A stretch of 36,188 nt of DNA from Sulfurimonas sp. (GTDB taxonomy: Bacteria; Campylobacterota; Campylobacteria; Campylobacterales; Sulfurimonadaceae), in assembly GCA_027063645.1 (NCBI GenBank), contig JAMORK010000016.1, forward strand, positions 1 to 36,188. Direction: 5' to 3'. Positions 7,319 to 16,937 of the stretch are shown here, piece after piece. Under the pieces are notes generated by a model. The model was not told where the DNA came from. It worked only from the letters and a program-made list of their open reading frames with translations, and searched no databases. The position numbers and the translations under genes were made by a program. Every line of letters begins with the position of its first letter. The stretch's first letter is position 1.

Positions 7319-8107
7319 TTAATTTTTTAGTGATACTTTTCTTTGAAACTGATACATTATAAGTGATGCAGCAACCCCAACATTAAAACTTTTAACATTC
7401 TCTTGCATCTCTATAGTAACTACCTCATCACATAATGCCAAAATATCTTCTGCGATACCTCGCCCCTCATGTCCCATCAAAAGGGCCCATTTCTCTGCTA
7501 CATCTACCTCTGCCAAAAAAGAGCTATCTTCACTCACCTCAGCCGCATACACCTTATAACCAAGCTCTTGTAAGGCTGGAATAAGAAGCTTTATATCATC
7601 AAAAATATGTGTTTGCAAATAGGAGGCATACCCCATCGAAACGCGGAGGGCACGTCTGTTAAAAGGGTGAGGAGAGCTCTTTGGTAAAAGGTAACTCTTG
7701 ACACCAAGGGCGGCTGCACTTCTTGCTATTGAGCCTACATTTTCACTTGAGGTGATATTGTCCAAGATAATCAATTCATCCCCTAAATCCTCTAAGGGTG
7801 TTAATGAAGGACGGATGCCGTGCATCATACAATTGTGGTGTATCTTATGCCCTACAATCTTCCCCATCTCCTCTTTTGTTGTCACATAACATCGAGGTAT
7901 CTTTTTTTTCTCTACAAGAGTTAGATACTCATCATAATACTCTTGTGTCGCTAAAATACTTCGTATCTCCAAGTCACCCTCTAAAAGTAAGTTCACCACT
8001 TTTGGGCTATCGGCTATGAAACTATTATCGCTACGAAAAGCATTCTCTCTAAGTTCTTTGTATATCTTTATATCATCATTATTTATATCATCTATCTTTA
8101 TAAGCAT
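7319..8107 (-). CDS. SpoU/TrmH (SPOUT) family RNA 2'-O-methyltransferase
   Basis: A 262-residue SPOUT methyltransferase. The three family motifs are present: NVGSIARSAAALG (motif 1), LLMGHEGRGI (motif 2) and MQENVKSFNVGVAASLIMYQ (motif 3). The last includes the knot residues that hold S-adenosylmethionine. The first 100 residues match the separate substrate-binding domain of RlmB/TsnR-type rRNA enzymes, so 23S rRNA is a likelier target than tRNA, but the exact nucleotide cannot be read. There is no ribosome site before the ATG at 8107, and a TAAAAT box lies only 5 bases upstream, so the message may be leaderless. EAL-HDOD and dbpA follow on the same strand. Confidence 0.88.
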   Translation of the reverse strand: MLIKIDDINNDDIKIYKELRENAFRSDNSFIADSPKVVNLLLEGDLEIRSILATQEYYDEYLTLVEKKKIPRCYVTTKEEMGKIVGHKIHHNCMMHGIRPSLTPLEDLGDELIILDNITSSENVGSIARSAAALGVKSYLLPKSSPHPFNRRALRVSMGYASYLQTHIFDDIKLLIPALQELGYKVYAAEVSEDSSFLAEVDVAEKWALLMGHEGRGIAEDILALCDEVVTIEMQENVKSFNVGVAASLIMYQFQRKVSLKN

Positions 8108-8112
8108 TATGT

Positions 8113-8127
8113 ATTTTACGCTAAAAT
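8113..8127. promoter_or_regulatory. two opposed -10 boxes in a 39-base divergent gap
   Basis: TAAAAT on the minus strand (8113-8118) faces the methyltransferase gene, and TAAAAT on the plus strand (8122-8127) faces the response regulator. They are 3 bases apart, so one polymerase would block the other. The boxes are simple in AT-rich DNA, hence the modest confidence. Confidence 0.4.
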
Positions 8128-8146
8128 AGATAAAGAAAGGGATACT

Positions 8147-8800
8147 ATGAAGATACTTTTAATGGAAGATGATGCTGTTTTATCCGATATATTACTCGAT
8201 TTTTTACAAGAGAGTTTTCATGTTGAGTATGCTTATAACTCCCAAGAGGTTCATAAACACTTAGAGACAAAGAAGTATGATCTTTTTATCTTTGACATCA
8301 ATGTTACAGGGCAAAATGGTCTTGAACTGCTAGAGGAGCTTCGCTCTTTTAGTGATAATACCCCAACCATTTTCATCACCGCCTATACCGATACAAACTA
8401 CCTCCAAAAAGCTTTTGACATAGGGGCACACGACTACATCAAAAAACCTTTTGAGCTTGAAGAGCTTCATGCTCGTATATTAAACACCAAACGACTCTTT
8501 AATATTGAGACTAATCAAGAGATAACAATAGATGAGGGGATTGTTTTTTATGCAAACTCTAAAAAAATCATCAAAAACAAAAAAGAGTTTACTCTTGCTA
8601 CGAAAGACACTCTCCTTCTCAACTACTTTTTAAATAACAAAAAAAGACTTATCTCCTCAGAGGAGTTGATGCAAAATATCTGGGATTTTGAGACACTCCC
8701 TAGTGATGCAACACTGCGTTCACACATTAGAACACTCCGTGAGATTATAGGCAAAGAGAAGATTCAAACCATTCGAGGGGAGGGATATCTTTATGAATAA
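8147..8800 (+). CDS. OmpR/PhoB-type response regulator
   Basis: A 217-residue two-domain regulator. The receiver domain has the acidic cluster EDD (7-9), the phosphorylation site Asp50 (FIFDIN), the switch Thr in ITAYTD and the Lys in IKKPF (about 99-100). The C-terminal winged helix (about 125-217) shows the family pattern SSEELMQNIWD and LRSHIRTLREIIG, ending in the wing motif IRGEGYLYE. It overlaps the kinase gene by 8 bases, so the two form one unit. AAAGGG lies 6 bases before the ATG. Target genes are unknown. No repeat of a likely binding site is evident in the short upstream gap. Confidence 0.93.
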   Translation: MKILLMEDDAVLSDILLDFLQESFHVEYAYNSQEVHKHLETKKYDLFIFDINVTGQNGLELLEELRSFSDNTPTIFITAYTDTNYLQKAFDIGAHDYIKKPFELEELHARILNTKRLFNIETNQEITIDEGIVFYANSKKIIKNKKEFTLATKDTLLLNYFLNNKKRLISSEELMQNIWDFETLPSDATLRSHIRTLREIIGKEKIQTIRGEGYLYE

Positions 8801-9944
8801 AATCACCAAAAAATCTTTTTATTCCTTTTTAGCACTCTATCTTATCTCCTCTTTTTTATTTTTAGCACTTGCTGCTTACTGGTTTTTTAACTCCCAAGTA
8901 AGCATGGAGATGAATAACAACTACTATAAGATGACAAACATAGCAGACAAGGTAAGCTCACAAATCATCCAAGCTGATATGATGCATAAAGAGTACAAAC
9001 TTGAGCATTTTCCCTATGCTTTAGTTGCCCTTTATGACAAAGAAAAAAAACTTTTAGATGGTGAGATACAACAAGAGGTAGATTTCTCTAAAGATTTCTA
9101 TATGCAAGGAAGTTTTTTCACCCTTGTTTCTCGCCATGTAGCTGGACACCTTGGGGTTGAATATGTCGTAGTACAAAGCTCTCAATGTAGTCGTAACATT
9201 ATGAATCTTAAAAATAAAATCGCCTACACTGTCATCTTTACCGCTTTTTTTATCATCATAATCTCTGTCTTTTTATCTTATATGTTTCTTCGGCCTATTC
9301 GTGATAAGATGCAGGAGATTGAGGAGTTTGTTAAAGATACAACTCATGAACTCAATACACCTATTACGGCACTAATGATGAGTACTTCAAGATTAAAATC
9401 TAAAAAAACTTATGATGAAAAGATTGTAAAAAATATCAGCATCAGCACCAAACAACTTTATGATATCTACTCCTCTTTAAGTTACATCAGTTTTGATACA
9501 AAACAAGAGAGTGCTGTGGAGATAGACTTTAGTACTACTGTTGCAGAAGCGATAGCTTACTTTGGTGAACTTTTAGAGAAAAAAAATATTCAACTTAAAA
9601 CACAACTGCAACCTTGCTTTATCACTATCACTCCTATCAAAGCAAAAATGCTTGCAAACAACCTCATCTCAAATGCTATCAAGTACTCAAACCCTCATGG
9701 GACTATGAGTATTGCAACAAGTCACAATAGTTTTATAGTTGAAGATACAGGGATAGGGATAGCCAAAGAGAAACTTAAAATAATTTTCAAACGCTTTGTA
9801 CGAGCAAACTCTTATGCTGGTGGATTTGGTGTGGGGTTAAACATTGTGGAGAGTATCATCAAAGAGTACGATTTTCGCATAAAAATCGACTCTATTGAGG
9901 GGGAGGGAACAAAAGTAAAGATTACTTTTTCACCACCCCAATAA
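8793..9944 (+). CDS. sensor histidine kinase, partner of the preceding regulator
   Basis: A 383-residue membrane kinase. Transmembrane segments lie at about 10-32 and 143-166, enclosing a small periplasmic sensor of about 110 residues with no recognised domain. The H-box is DTTHELNTPITAL with His185. The N-box reads NNLISNAIKYSN, G1 VEDTGIGIA, the F-box FKRFVRANS, and G2 GGFGVGLNIV. The phosphoacceptor helix starts directly after the membrane, with no clear HAMP domain. A lone Cys (QSSQCS, about 132) lies near the outer membrane face. The stimulus is unknown. The 8-base overlap with the regulator gene makes the pairing very likely. Confidence 0.92.
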   Translation: MNKITKKSFYSFLALYLISSFLFLALAAYWFFNSQVSMEMNNNYYKMTNIADKVSSQIIQADMMHKEYKLEHFPYALVALYDKEKKLLDGEIQQEVDFSKDFYMQGSFFTLVSRHVAGHLGVEYVVVQSSQCSRNIMNLKNKIAYTVIFTAFFIIIISVFLSYMFLRPIRDKMQEIEEFVKDTTHELNTPITALMMSTSRLKSKKTYDEKIVKNISISTKQLYDIYSSLSYISFDTKQESAVEIDFSTTVAEAIAYFGELLEKKNIQLKTQLQPCFITITPIKAKMLANNLISNAIKYSNPHGTMSIATSHNSFIVEDTGIGIAKEKLKIIFKRFVRANSYAGGFGVGLNIVESIIKEYDFRIKIDSIEGEGTKVKITFSPPQ

Positions 9945-14750: not shown

Positions 14751-16193
14751 TTATTTTGCACGTTCTAAAACACTTTTCTTAGGAAAGACAAATGTTGTAT
14801 GACGGATAACAGAAATTTTTTCACTTTTCTTACCATCTTTATCGAGTGCATATGCATGGATAGTGATAGGGATAATAGTATCTTTTCTATCATTTTCAAC
14901 AAGCACATCAGTAGTACTTAGTGTAACAATTTTTTTCTTTTTCGTACCTGGTATAACTCTAAACGGTTTTGTAGGTTTTACAATAGAGATCTTACCGTTA
15001 ATACCTTCTGGTTGTATAATCTCAAAAAAGAATTCCATTGGCTCATTCTCAGTATTTTGAAGCAAGAAGATATATGAATTATCTACTTTTACTTTTCCAT
15101 TGTCAAGTGCTTTTTCTGAGTAAAGACGTGTCTCTTTATTGATATTTAAAAGCATATGCTCTTTTGTACTACCCATAAATCCAAGCATAATAGTGATGGC
15201 AACGAGTAACACCATATAAGCTATAACCTTAGGTCTAAAGTACTGAGTTTTCCCTTTTCGATCAACTATCTCATAATCACTTGACCATGTTACAAGAGAA
15301 GGTTTCCCAAGTTTACCCATAACTGTCGTACAAGCATCAACACACTCTAAACAGTTGATACACTCAAGTTGTAAACCTTGACGAATATCGATATGTGTAG
15401 GACAAACAGTTACACATGCTTCACAAGCTGTACACTCTGCATTTGGCTGATCTGCAAGTAAATCTTTTTGTTTTGAGTATTTTTTCTCATGCCCATCATA
15501 GATATCTCCACCACGGTGCATATCATAAAGTGCCATAACGGTATGCTCATCATAAAGAACTGATTGTACACGTGAATAAGGACAAACATAGATACAAAAG
15601 TTTTCTTGTAAGAATACAATATCATAAATCAAAAATGCTGCTATACCAAGTACAGCACCAATAAGAGTCCAGTGTTCAGTAGGATTTTGAAGATAAGCAA
15701 AGAAATCTTCAGGTGGAACAAAAAACCATAAGAGATCTGATGCAGCAATAATCGCTAAAACAGTCCAAATAAGAATCGCAACAACTTTTTTCACCTTATT
15801 TTCAGGCTTAGACATATCTGGTTCTTGTTGTTTATTTTTAATACGTTTACGTAAACCTAAAAGCTTTGTTTCAATAAGATCACGATAGATAACACGGAAC
15901 ACTGTTTGGGGACATACCCACCCACAAAACACACGACCACCCATCACTGTCATACCAAAAATTCCAAGGAACATTAGCATTAACAAGAAAGGCATAAGAT
16001 ATAACTCTTGCATATCAAATTGGATAAATGCCAAGTGTAGTTTTAGTTTATCAAAACTTAAAAGGAAGAAATGATTCCCTCCAACTGTAATCCATGGTAA
16101 GATTAATGCTATAGCAGTCATTATTGCATACACATAGTATCTTTTTATTCTCCATGGTGTAGGTATCTTTATACCTGTTTTCTCTTTACTCAT
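14751..16193 (-). CDS. ccoG: cytochrome c oxidase accessory protein CcoG (RdxA/FixG)
   Basis: A 480-residue membrane iron-sulfur protein. It has an N-terminal hydrophobic region with GRVFCGWVCPQTVFR (cysteines 90 and 94) and then NFCIYVCPYSRVQSVLYDE. A dicluster ferredoxin domain has cysteines at 254, 257, 260, 264 and 278, 281, 284, 288 (CTACEACVTVCP, CINCLECVDAC). The C-terminal 150 residues form an Ig-like periplasmic domain after the last membrane helix. CcoG is known to reduce copper for cbb3-type oxidase assembly. No cco structural genes are in view, so they lie elsewhere. GGGAG lies 6 bases before the ATG. The gene follows the recombinase-like gene by 15 bases, so the two are probably co-transcribed. 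Confidence 0.95.
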   Translation of the reverse strand: MSKEKTGIKIPTPWRIKRYYVYAIMTAIALILPWITVGGNHFFLLSFDKLKLHLAFIQFDMQELYLMPFLLMLMFLGIFGMTVMGGRVFCGWVCPQTVFRVIYRDLIETKLLGLRKRIKNKQQEPDMSKPENKVKKVVAILIWTVLAIIAASDLLWFFVPPEDFFAYLQNPTEHWTLIGAVLGIAAFLIYDIVFLQENFCIYVCPYSRVQSVLYDEHTVMALYDMHRGGDIYDGHEKKYSKQKDLLADQPNAECTACEACVTVCPTHIDIRQGLQLECINCLECVDACTTVMGKLGKPSLVTWSSDYEIVDRKGKTQYFRPKVIAYMVLLVAITIMLGFMGSTKEHMLLNINKETRLYSEKALDNGKVKVDNSYIFLLQNTENEPMEFFFEIIQPEGINGKISIVKPTKPFRVIPGTKKKKIVTLSTTDVLVENDRKDTIIPITIHAYALDKDGKKSEKISVIRHTTFVFPKKSVLERAK

Positions 16194-16208: not shown

Positions 16209-16844
16209 TTAATTTGGACATACTATTGTATTTATTACCTGCTCTTCAGCATCTTTTGGAGCTTTTGGTAAAAGTGAACCAAATGCTACCTGTTTAAGTT
16301 CTCTCGATTCTATATAATCTTTAAGTGAACTACGACTTACACCGAGGAGTCGTGCCATCTCGCTAACACTTTTTTTCTCTCTAATGTATGAGATAATCTC
16401 ACTAATATATATATCAAATTTAGAACTAGACTTACTGCCCTTTGGTCGACCAATCACTCTCTTGAGTTCATTTTGCAACACTTGGCGTAATTGATCTATA
16501 AGACCAAGAACCAACATAACACTACTCGCTTGAGTAATAGTTACAGACTGCTTAATAAAGTGAACACTAAATTCATTTCTTAGTAAACAGCTAAACATTT
16601 GAACGATATCTTCCATATCGGTACTTAAAACCCACACATCATAAATAAGAAGTGTCGATTTTGGTTTCGATTGAAAATAGGATGTTACCTCTTCACGTTC
16701 ACTCAAACGTTTATTTTGCGAAGTATAATCGATAAATTCATCATCAATTGTCAAATTATTAGCCATTGCATAAGAGTTTATGTGTTGTAATTGTTCATGG
16801 ACAGCATCAAAGTGTTTATCTGGACGAATGTATGCAATTACCAT
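16209..16844 (-). CDS. serine-recombinase-like protein with HTH, catalytic residues missing; probable regulator
   Basis: A 211-residue protein with the layout of a resolvase/invertase: an N-terminal catalytic-type domain (1 to about 110), a long helix (112-131), a GRPKGSK hinge (132-138) and a C-terminal helix-turn-helix (about 159-181, SVSEMARLLGVSRSSLKDYI). Active enzymes read YARVS at the start, with the Ser as nucleophile; here it reads YIRPD. The DRLGR motif of active enzymes is DVWVL here, so an essential Arg is also gone. It is therefore unlikely to cut DNA. No recombination sites or mobile genes flank it. The position directly before ccoG and the repeats around its own promoter suggest a domesticated, self-regulating DNA-binding protein. 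The ribosome site is weak (GAGAGG, 14 bases upstream). Confidence 0.8.
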   Translation of the reverse strand: MVIAYIRPDKHFDAVHEQLQHINSYAMANNLTIDDEFIDYTSQNKRLSEREEVTSYFQSKPKSTLLIYDVWVLSTDMEDIVQMFSCLLRNEFSVHFIKQSVTITQASSVMLVLGLIDQLRQVLQNELKRVIGRPKGSKSSSKFDIYISEIISYIREKKSVSEMARLLGVSRSSLKDYIESRELKQVAFGSLLPKAPKDAEEQVINTIVCPN

Positions 16845-16880
16845 AACTAACGATTAAACCTCTCATATTTTCTAATTTCA

Positions 16881-16937
16881 TCGTCATTATAGCAACATCT
16901 GACGAAATAAGTCAAGAGTTTTTTACTTTTTTCGTCA
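16881..16937. promoter_or_regulatory. three TGACGA repeats around the promoter (operator-like)
   Basis: TGACGA cores lie at 16881-16886 (minus, overlapping the end of the -10), 16900-16905 (plus, in the spacer) and 16932-16937 (minus, upstream of the -35). The outer two are part of an identical 10-base repeat, TCGTCATTAT. The middle and upstream copies extend to TGACGAAA. Centres are 19 and 32 bases apart, near two and three helical turns. Confidence 0.5.
16886..16915 (-). promoter_or_regulatory. near-consensus sigma-70 promoter of the recombinase-like gene/ccoG
   Basis: TTGACT (16910-16915) and TATAAT (16886-16891) on the minus strand, spaced 18 bases, with a predicted start near 16879. A recognisable -35 is unusual in this window. 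Confidence 0.75.

Follow-up and report, generated by a model that had tools for sequence, protein, structure and literature searches.

The question raised by this locus is what a protein with the domain order of a DNA resolvase, but with other residues at the catalytic positions, does immediately upstream of a gene for the assembly of cytochrome oxidase. The window analysed here is the whole stretch of 36,188 nucleotides from Sulfurimonas sp. (contig JAMORK010000016.1), in which the gene pair is laid out as follows:

16209..16844, minus strand: gene of the dead serine-recombinase-like regulator ('REC'), 211 amino acids (open reading frame, Pfam and alignment)
16491..16841, minus strand: resolvase N-terminal (former catalytic) domain, residues 2-118 (Pfam PF00239 match)
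16293..16451, minus strand: GRPKGS arm and helix-turn-helix, residues 132-184, the best-conserved part of the family (alignment)
14751..16193, minus strand: ccoG, for a cupric reductase / cbb3 oxidase assembly factor; starts 15 bp after the regulator gene

An earlier note on this DNA had recognized in the protein, whose N-terminus reads MVIAYIRPD, the domain order of a resolvase or invertase. This reading is borne out by Pfam analysis, in which residues 2-118 match the Resolvase family (PF00239) with E=8.5e-7, exceeding the curated cut-off, and helix-turn-helix models are matched in the C-terminal part. The top NCBIfam match over the whole length is the Mpi invertase family NF009949 (E=5e-12), at 45.9 bits far below the family cut-off of 272 bits. 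The structure prediction suggested in the note gave an AF2 model of low confidence (pLDDT 62.5, pTM 0.41), in which the elements follow one another in resolvase order and a long helix (residues 105-131) precedes the helix-turn-helix; Foldseek searches with this low-confidence model rank Tn3 and gamma-delta resolvases first in PDB (E=5e-6). By profile match and predicted structure, the protein has a resolvase fold with a C-terminal helix-turn-helix.

Homologues with E below about 5e-46 are present in 156 of 399 sampled Campylobacterales genomes (tallied by hand), while a phylum-wide sample yields matches at E<=1e-40 in 98 of 397 genomes, every one within Campylobacterales, where the gene is maintained in about ten families. 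Its carriers include a cultivated species, Sulfurimonas indica NW8N (locus L004). The gap of 15 bases between the regulator reading frame and the start of ccoG (position 16193), already pointed out in the earlier note, belongs to a linkage that extends across the order: ccoG is the next gene on the same strand in 97 of the 101 distinct copies, three others end at contig edges, and the sole copy lying away from ccoG without a contig edge is L057 of family f17. The phylogenetic tree of CcoG requires at least 11 changes between presence and absence of the regulator, six of which are forced by well-supported branches; for two f17 genomes labelled 'absent', which carry the gene elsewhere, the label means 'not next to ccoG'. 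Many genomes of the Sulfurimonas clade keep ccoG without the regulator gene, and the regulator is thus not needed for the expression of ccoG as such. No relatives of the regulator were found in phages or viral contigs and the plasmid matches are distant recombinases only (24-29% identical), in agreement with the lack of mobile-element signs reported from the window. A distribution mostly in mobile elements, which the earlier note had named as the contrary outcome, was not what we found.

Two loci of the Sulfurimonas clade (L025 and L038) have a repeat-like insert of roughly 180-230 bp that separates the regulator from ccoG, and the adjacent ccoG of L045 (G097, family f4) is only 33% alike and lies on an extremely long branch, possibly being frameshifted or replaced. 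Elsewhere in the window, positions 8147-9944 (plus strand) hold an ordinary-looking response regulator / histidine kinase pair.

The region preceding the regulator gene contains an operator-like repeat and a promoter, with these predicted elements:

16900..16937, no strand assigned: operator site I, TGACGA-N26-TCGTCA, a 38 bp inverted repeat (predicted by motif search)
16910..16915, minus strand: -35 box TTGACT of the predicted promoter, within operator site I
16886..16891, minus strand: -10 box TATAAT of the predicted promoter, 18 bp from the -35 box and adjoining operator site II
16848..16886, no strand assigned: predicted operator site II, a degenerate copy, TGACGA-N27-TCGTTA, with 3 bp between its end and the start codon

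The number of chance occurrences of TGACGA-N26-TCGTCA expected in the window is 0. The inverted repeat, with spacers N26, N27 or N28 (38-40 bp overall), precedes 100 of 101 copies of the regulator and encloses the -35 box; its score within 200 bp upstream is at least 10 in 100 of the 101 copies and at least 15 in 94. Both half-sites are exact in 42 of the 61 upstream regions first examined, with spacers of 26-28 bp, compared with none of 1200 shuffles. A promoter of the form TTGACT-17/18-TATAAT, pointing at the regulator gene from a fixed position and with its -35 box inside the repeat, was recognized in 56 of 58 cases. Where a core base has changed, the two half-sites tend to have changed symmetrically to an identical base, in 7 cases against 2.2 expected (P=0.003), as is to be expected when a symmetric dimer reads both halves, and we found no conservation at the centre of the repeat. 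Site II, which follows about 51 bp on and abuts the -10 box, stands out clearly in the Sulfurimonas clade alone, where 33 of 42 regions show it with two mismatches or fewer.

When 99 genomes were searched with a profile of the repeat, those bearing the regulator reached E 1e-10 at its promoter, whereas none of the genomes lacking it gave a hit below E 1e-3. Exact patterns in six regulator-less genomes (G004, G037, G039, G055, G069 and G090) were set aside, since they lie in or beside unrelated genes and have no -35 layout. In G052, where the regulator was not found, an exact operator-like repeat (L106:1155-1192) precedes genes for a DUF2249 protein and a large membrane protein by ~100 bp; this may be due to chance or to the regulator being missing from the assembly.

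The same motif search of 99 genomes indicates that the repeat recurs away from the regulator gene. The main second site precedes an operon of a membrane protein of roughly 70 residues and an M48 peptidase, and was found in 11 of 20 regulator-bearing genomes of the window's genus with a readable upstream region, compared with none of 20 regulator-less genomes of the Sulfurimonas clade, in which the best score upstream of M48 was 3.7 (shuffles reach 15.1 at most). A simple count of the 34 genomes placed in a tree gives Fisher P=7e-4, but the tree contains four changes of the regulator and only 2-4 independent contrasts, which cannot reach significance after correction for ancestry; none of them goes in the wrong direction. 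At ccoG loci not preceded by the regulator, the operator was found in 0 of 29. At the M48 operon about 115 bp separate the site from the small gene and no -10 box is evident, so that repression by occlusion is not obvious there.

Other recurrences of the site, together with the genes sharing the operon of the regulator, concern a short series of functions. The site precedes TehA (SLAC1) and DUF302 genes in two genomes of the Sulfurimonas clade; TehA comes after ccoG in families f14 and f20, and in f17 the genes of TehA and the regulator are divergent, with an operator between them. In f18 and f6, ccoG is followed by the small membrane protein (E 1e-10 to 1e-12). In f18 (L055) the gene run comprises regulator, ccoG, NifX-like protein, small membrane protein, SQR-like flavoprotein, DUF4492, cydA and cydB, while in f17 an operator (L104:1645-1683) overlaps the near-consensus promoter of an operon with NifX-like, DUF4492 and cydA genes; cydAB is therefore within the regulator-ccoG operon in one family and under an operator in the other. 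Shared site and shared operon are two independent routes leading to the same short list of predicted target genes. The NifX-like protein of f17 ends with a His/Cys-rich tail that is possibly metal-binding.

We consider it likely that a serine recombinase, now catalytically dead, has been domesticated here as a repressor that regulates its own gene together with ccoG and a small terminal-oxidase regulon, probably with a cysteine sensor. A dimer would bind the 38-40 bp inverted repeat, with the C-terminal helix-turn-helix reading the outer TGACGA half-sites and the GRPKG arm the A/T-rich inner flank. Since the site at its own promoter encloses the -35 box, and reaches between this and the -10 box, binding should shut off the regulator-ccoG operon, much as TnpR does from res. 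The same protein may control the operons of the small membrane protein with the M48 protease and of TehA with DUF302, and, in some families, those of the SQR-like flavoprotein and cydAB. Release of the repressor, by a signal to which the cysteine pair responds, would then induce ccoG and its partner genes under conditions in which the oxidase requires copper supply or an alternative. The earlier suggestion of a recombinase fold reused as a transcription regulator, perhaps of cbb3 oxidase assembly, has thereby gained a conserved operator-like repeat, at the regulator's own promoter and at other, respiration-related operons, and a near-constant linkage to ccoG, from which we infer binding and repression.

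An opposite sign of control, namely an activator that binds near the -35 box and aids RNA polymerase, for instance by bending DNA on cue, would suit the M48-operon sites, which lack a clear -10 box and are a long way from the start codon. We hold it to be unlikely, if worth weighing, because at the regulator's own promoter and that of cydAB in f17 the site covers the -35 box and spacer of near-consensus sigma-70 promoters, the classical position of a repressor, and TnpR represses tnpR and tnpA from the same kind of arrangement, with sites in res that overlap promoters (PMC7157771).

The repeat might instead belong to a different transcription factor, the recombinase-like protein being a passenger or having another role, for example structural or co-regulatory. 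Binding by the recombinase-like protein is deduced from the arrangement of gene and site, and neighbours of conserved operators are sometimes targets rather than regulators; nevertheless, we regard this explanation as improbable. In regulator-less genomes the site is absent both from M48 operons and from ccoG loci, and in f17 it stays with the regulator even though that gene is no longer next to ccoG. Moreover, the long inverted-repeat layout suits a dimer of the resolvase type, and the DNA-binding end is the best-conserved part of the protein, with an arm and helix-turn-helix consensus GRPxGSxSxSKFD...SVSxxARxLxVSRSSLKDYIxSRxL among the homologues.

That the protein no longer cuts DNA is indicated by its active site. 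In the alignment with gamma-delta resolvase, S10 corresponds to D9, and R68 and R71 to V70 and L73; the segment D67-R68-L69-G70-R71 reads D69-V-W-V-L73, with D67 retained, and R8 and R45 are likewise retained as R7 and R50. The replacements noticed earlier in the window protein, YIRPD at the position of the catalytic serine and DVWVL in place of DRLGR, extend to the whole family. None of the 101 distinct homologues has Ser at the aligned S10 position, which is occupied by D, K, L, R, A, M, E, V, I, Q, T, F, H, N or Y, and none has the R68 or R71 arginines, which are replaced by V/L/I/T/A and L/F/I, respectively. The equivalent of R45 is kept in 101 of 101 and that of R8 in 89 of 101; an intact set of Ser and Arg elsewhere in the protein, which the earlier note had considered as the opposite result, was not encountered. 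Five weak homologues (L058-L062, E 1e-4 to 1e-8) were rejected as other recombinases outside the ccoG-linked family, and three of them (L059, L061 and L062) retain YxRVST and RLGR, so that the alignment is a fair test of catalytic loss.

A recombinase still active with another nucleophile, for example one that inverts or resolves DNA at the promoter of ccoG, could draw upon the largely retained equivalents of R8, R45 and D67 and upon the copies that have Ser one residue before (14 copies) or one after (13 copies) the S10 position. Such activity appears highly improbable, given that R68 and R71 are lost together with S10 in every copy, the promoter is aimed at the gene with an almost invariant layout, the repeat has no conserved centre and there is no mobile-element or phage context. 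Finally, a decaying gene that adjoins ccoG by chance would be in keeping with the lost catalytic site, yet it is hardly credible and already refuted by conservation, for codon-position differences of 30/11/98 from one close relative denote purifying selection, 17 residues are invariant among 22 diverse copies and so many families have kept the gene. The loss of the active site, the order-wide retention before ccoG and the conserved target over its own promoter very probably signify an undescribed switch of respiratory-oxidase genes.

The signal of this switch may be connected with two conserved cysteines:

16587..16589, minus strand: Cys86 codon, with Cys kept in 100 of the 101 distinct homologues
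16218..16220, minus strand: Cys209 codon, near the C-terminus and before a Pro, with Cys kept in 99 of the 101

Proline usually follows the C-terminal cysteine and exactly two cysteines are present in 62 of the 101 proteins; in the AF2 model, which is weak and had only close relatives as input, the Cys86-Cys209 distance is not reliable. Conserved cysteine pairs in cytoplasmic repressors are typical of CsoR, CstR and SqrR, two-cysteine sensors of thiols or metals. Their fold is unrelated to that of the regulator, and the likeness consists of the cysteine pair, to which a similar response can be ascribed only by analogy. Judging from its conservation, the pair probably forms a sensor of copper, reactive sulfur or oxidants, with copper slightly favoured. 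Copper is the most natural signal, since CcoG serves cbb3 assembly as a cupric reductase and Campylobacter jejuni loses half of its Cco activity when ccoG is deleted (PMC8267372); sulfide or redox state is plausible too in view of the SQR-like and bd-oxidase partners. The f17 copies, the gene of which lies away from ccoG, have lost both cysteines and kept the operator. In one f17 genome (G108; L299:2157-3543, minus strand), the regulator is convergent to genes that read as PCuAC- and Sco-like copper chaperones.

Comparison with known systems places the regulator close to the resolvases, of which active members are already known to autoregulate by binding DNA. With TnpR of Tn3 and gamma-delta at res it shares fold, domain order and dimer-type inverted-repeat sites that overlap its own promoter. 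In contrast to TnpR, it lacks the serine and two arginines, is not carried by a transposon and has chromosomal respiration genes as predicted targets, with sites of 38-40 bp, whereas sites I-III of res measure 28, 34 and 25 bp. Mpi-type DNA invertases are similar in the C-terminal arm and helix-turn-helix, but the regulator lacks active-site residues and scores 46 bits against the 272 of their family (NF009949). Hin and Gin invertases, in which a GRPR/GRPK arm precedes the helix-turn-helix, have the same layout of small serine recombinases; unlike Hin, which inverts DNA at hix, the regulator has no catalytic serine and we saw no inverting segment. The known respiratory regulators of Campylobacterota resemble it in controlling respiratory genes within the same phylum, and the text of a review on them (PMC6682613) mentions neither recombinase nor resolvase nor ccoG. 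A review of recruited mobile-element enzymes describes regulation by serine recombinases through inversion or excision, and our search of the open-access full-text literature brought up no dedicated family of regulators formed by small serine recombinases that are catalytically dead.

The wider reading has in our view an even chance: a dedicated family of transcription factors, derived from a dead small serine recombinase, may sense copper, reactive sulfur or redox state with its two cysteines and set ccoG, and in some lineages cytochrome bd, across Campylobacterales. If this is true, the recombinase fold would join the families of bacterial transcription regulators, clearly exemplifying how an enzyme that cuts DNA can be domesticated for regulation, and a regulator would be named for ccoG, and for cydAB in some families, in a microaerophile phylum with poorly known oxidase control. 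Its defined DNA site and two cysteines render it directly testable.

A second recombinase-like family was seen in f9, upstream of rplI-hslV-hslU (L058 and L060, match region about 7974-8612, minus strand). Its active site is altered as well, with S10 changed to N and R68 to V while R71 is kept, and many f9 genomes give similarly weak matches, so that another domesticated recombinase may exist in this family.
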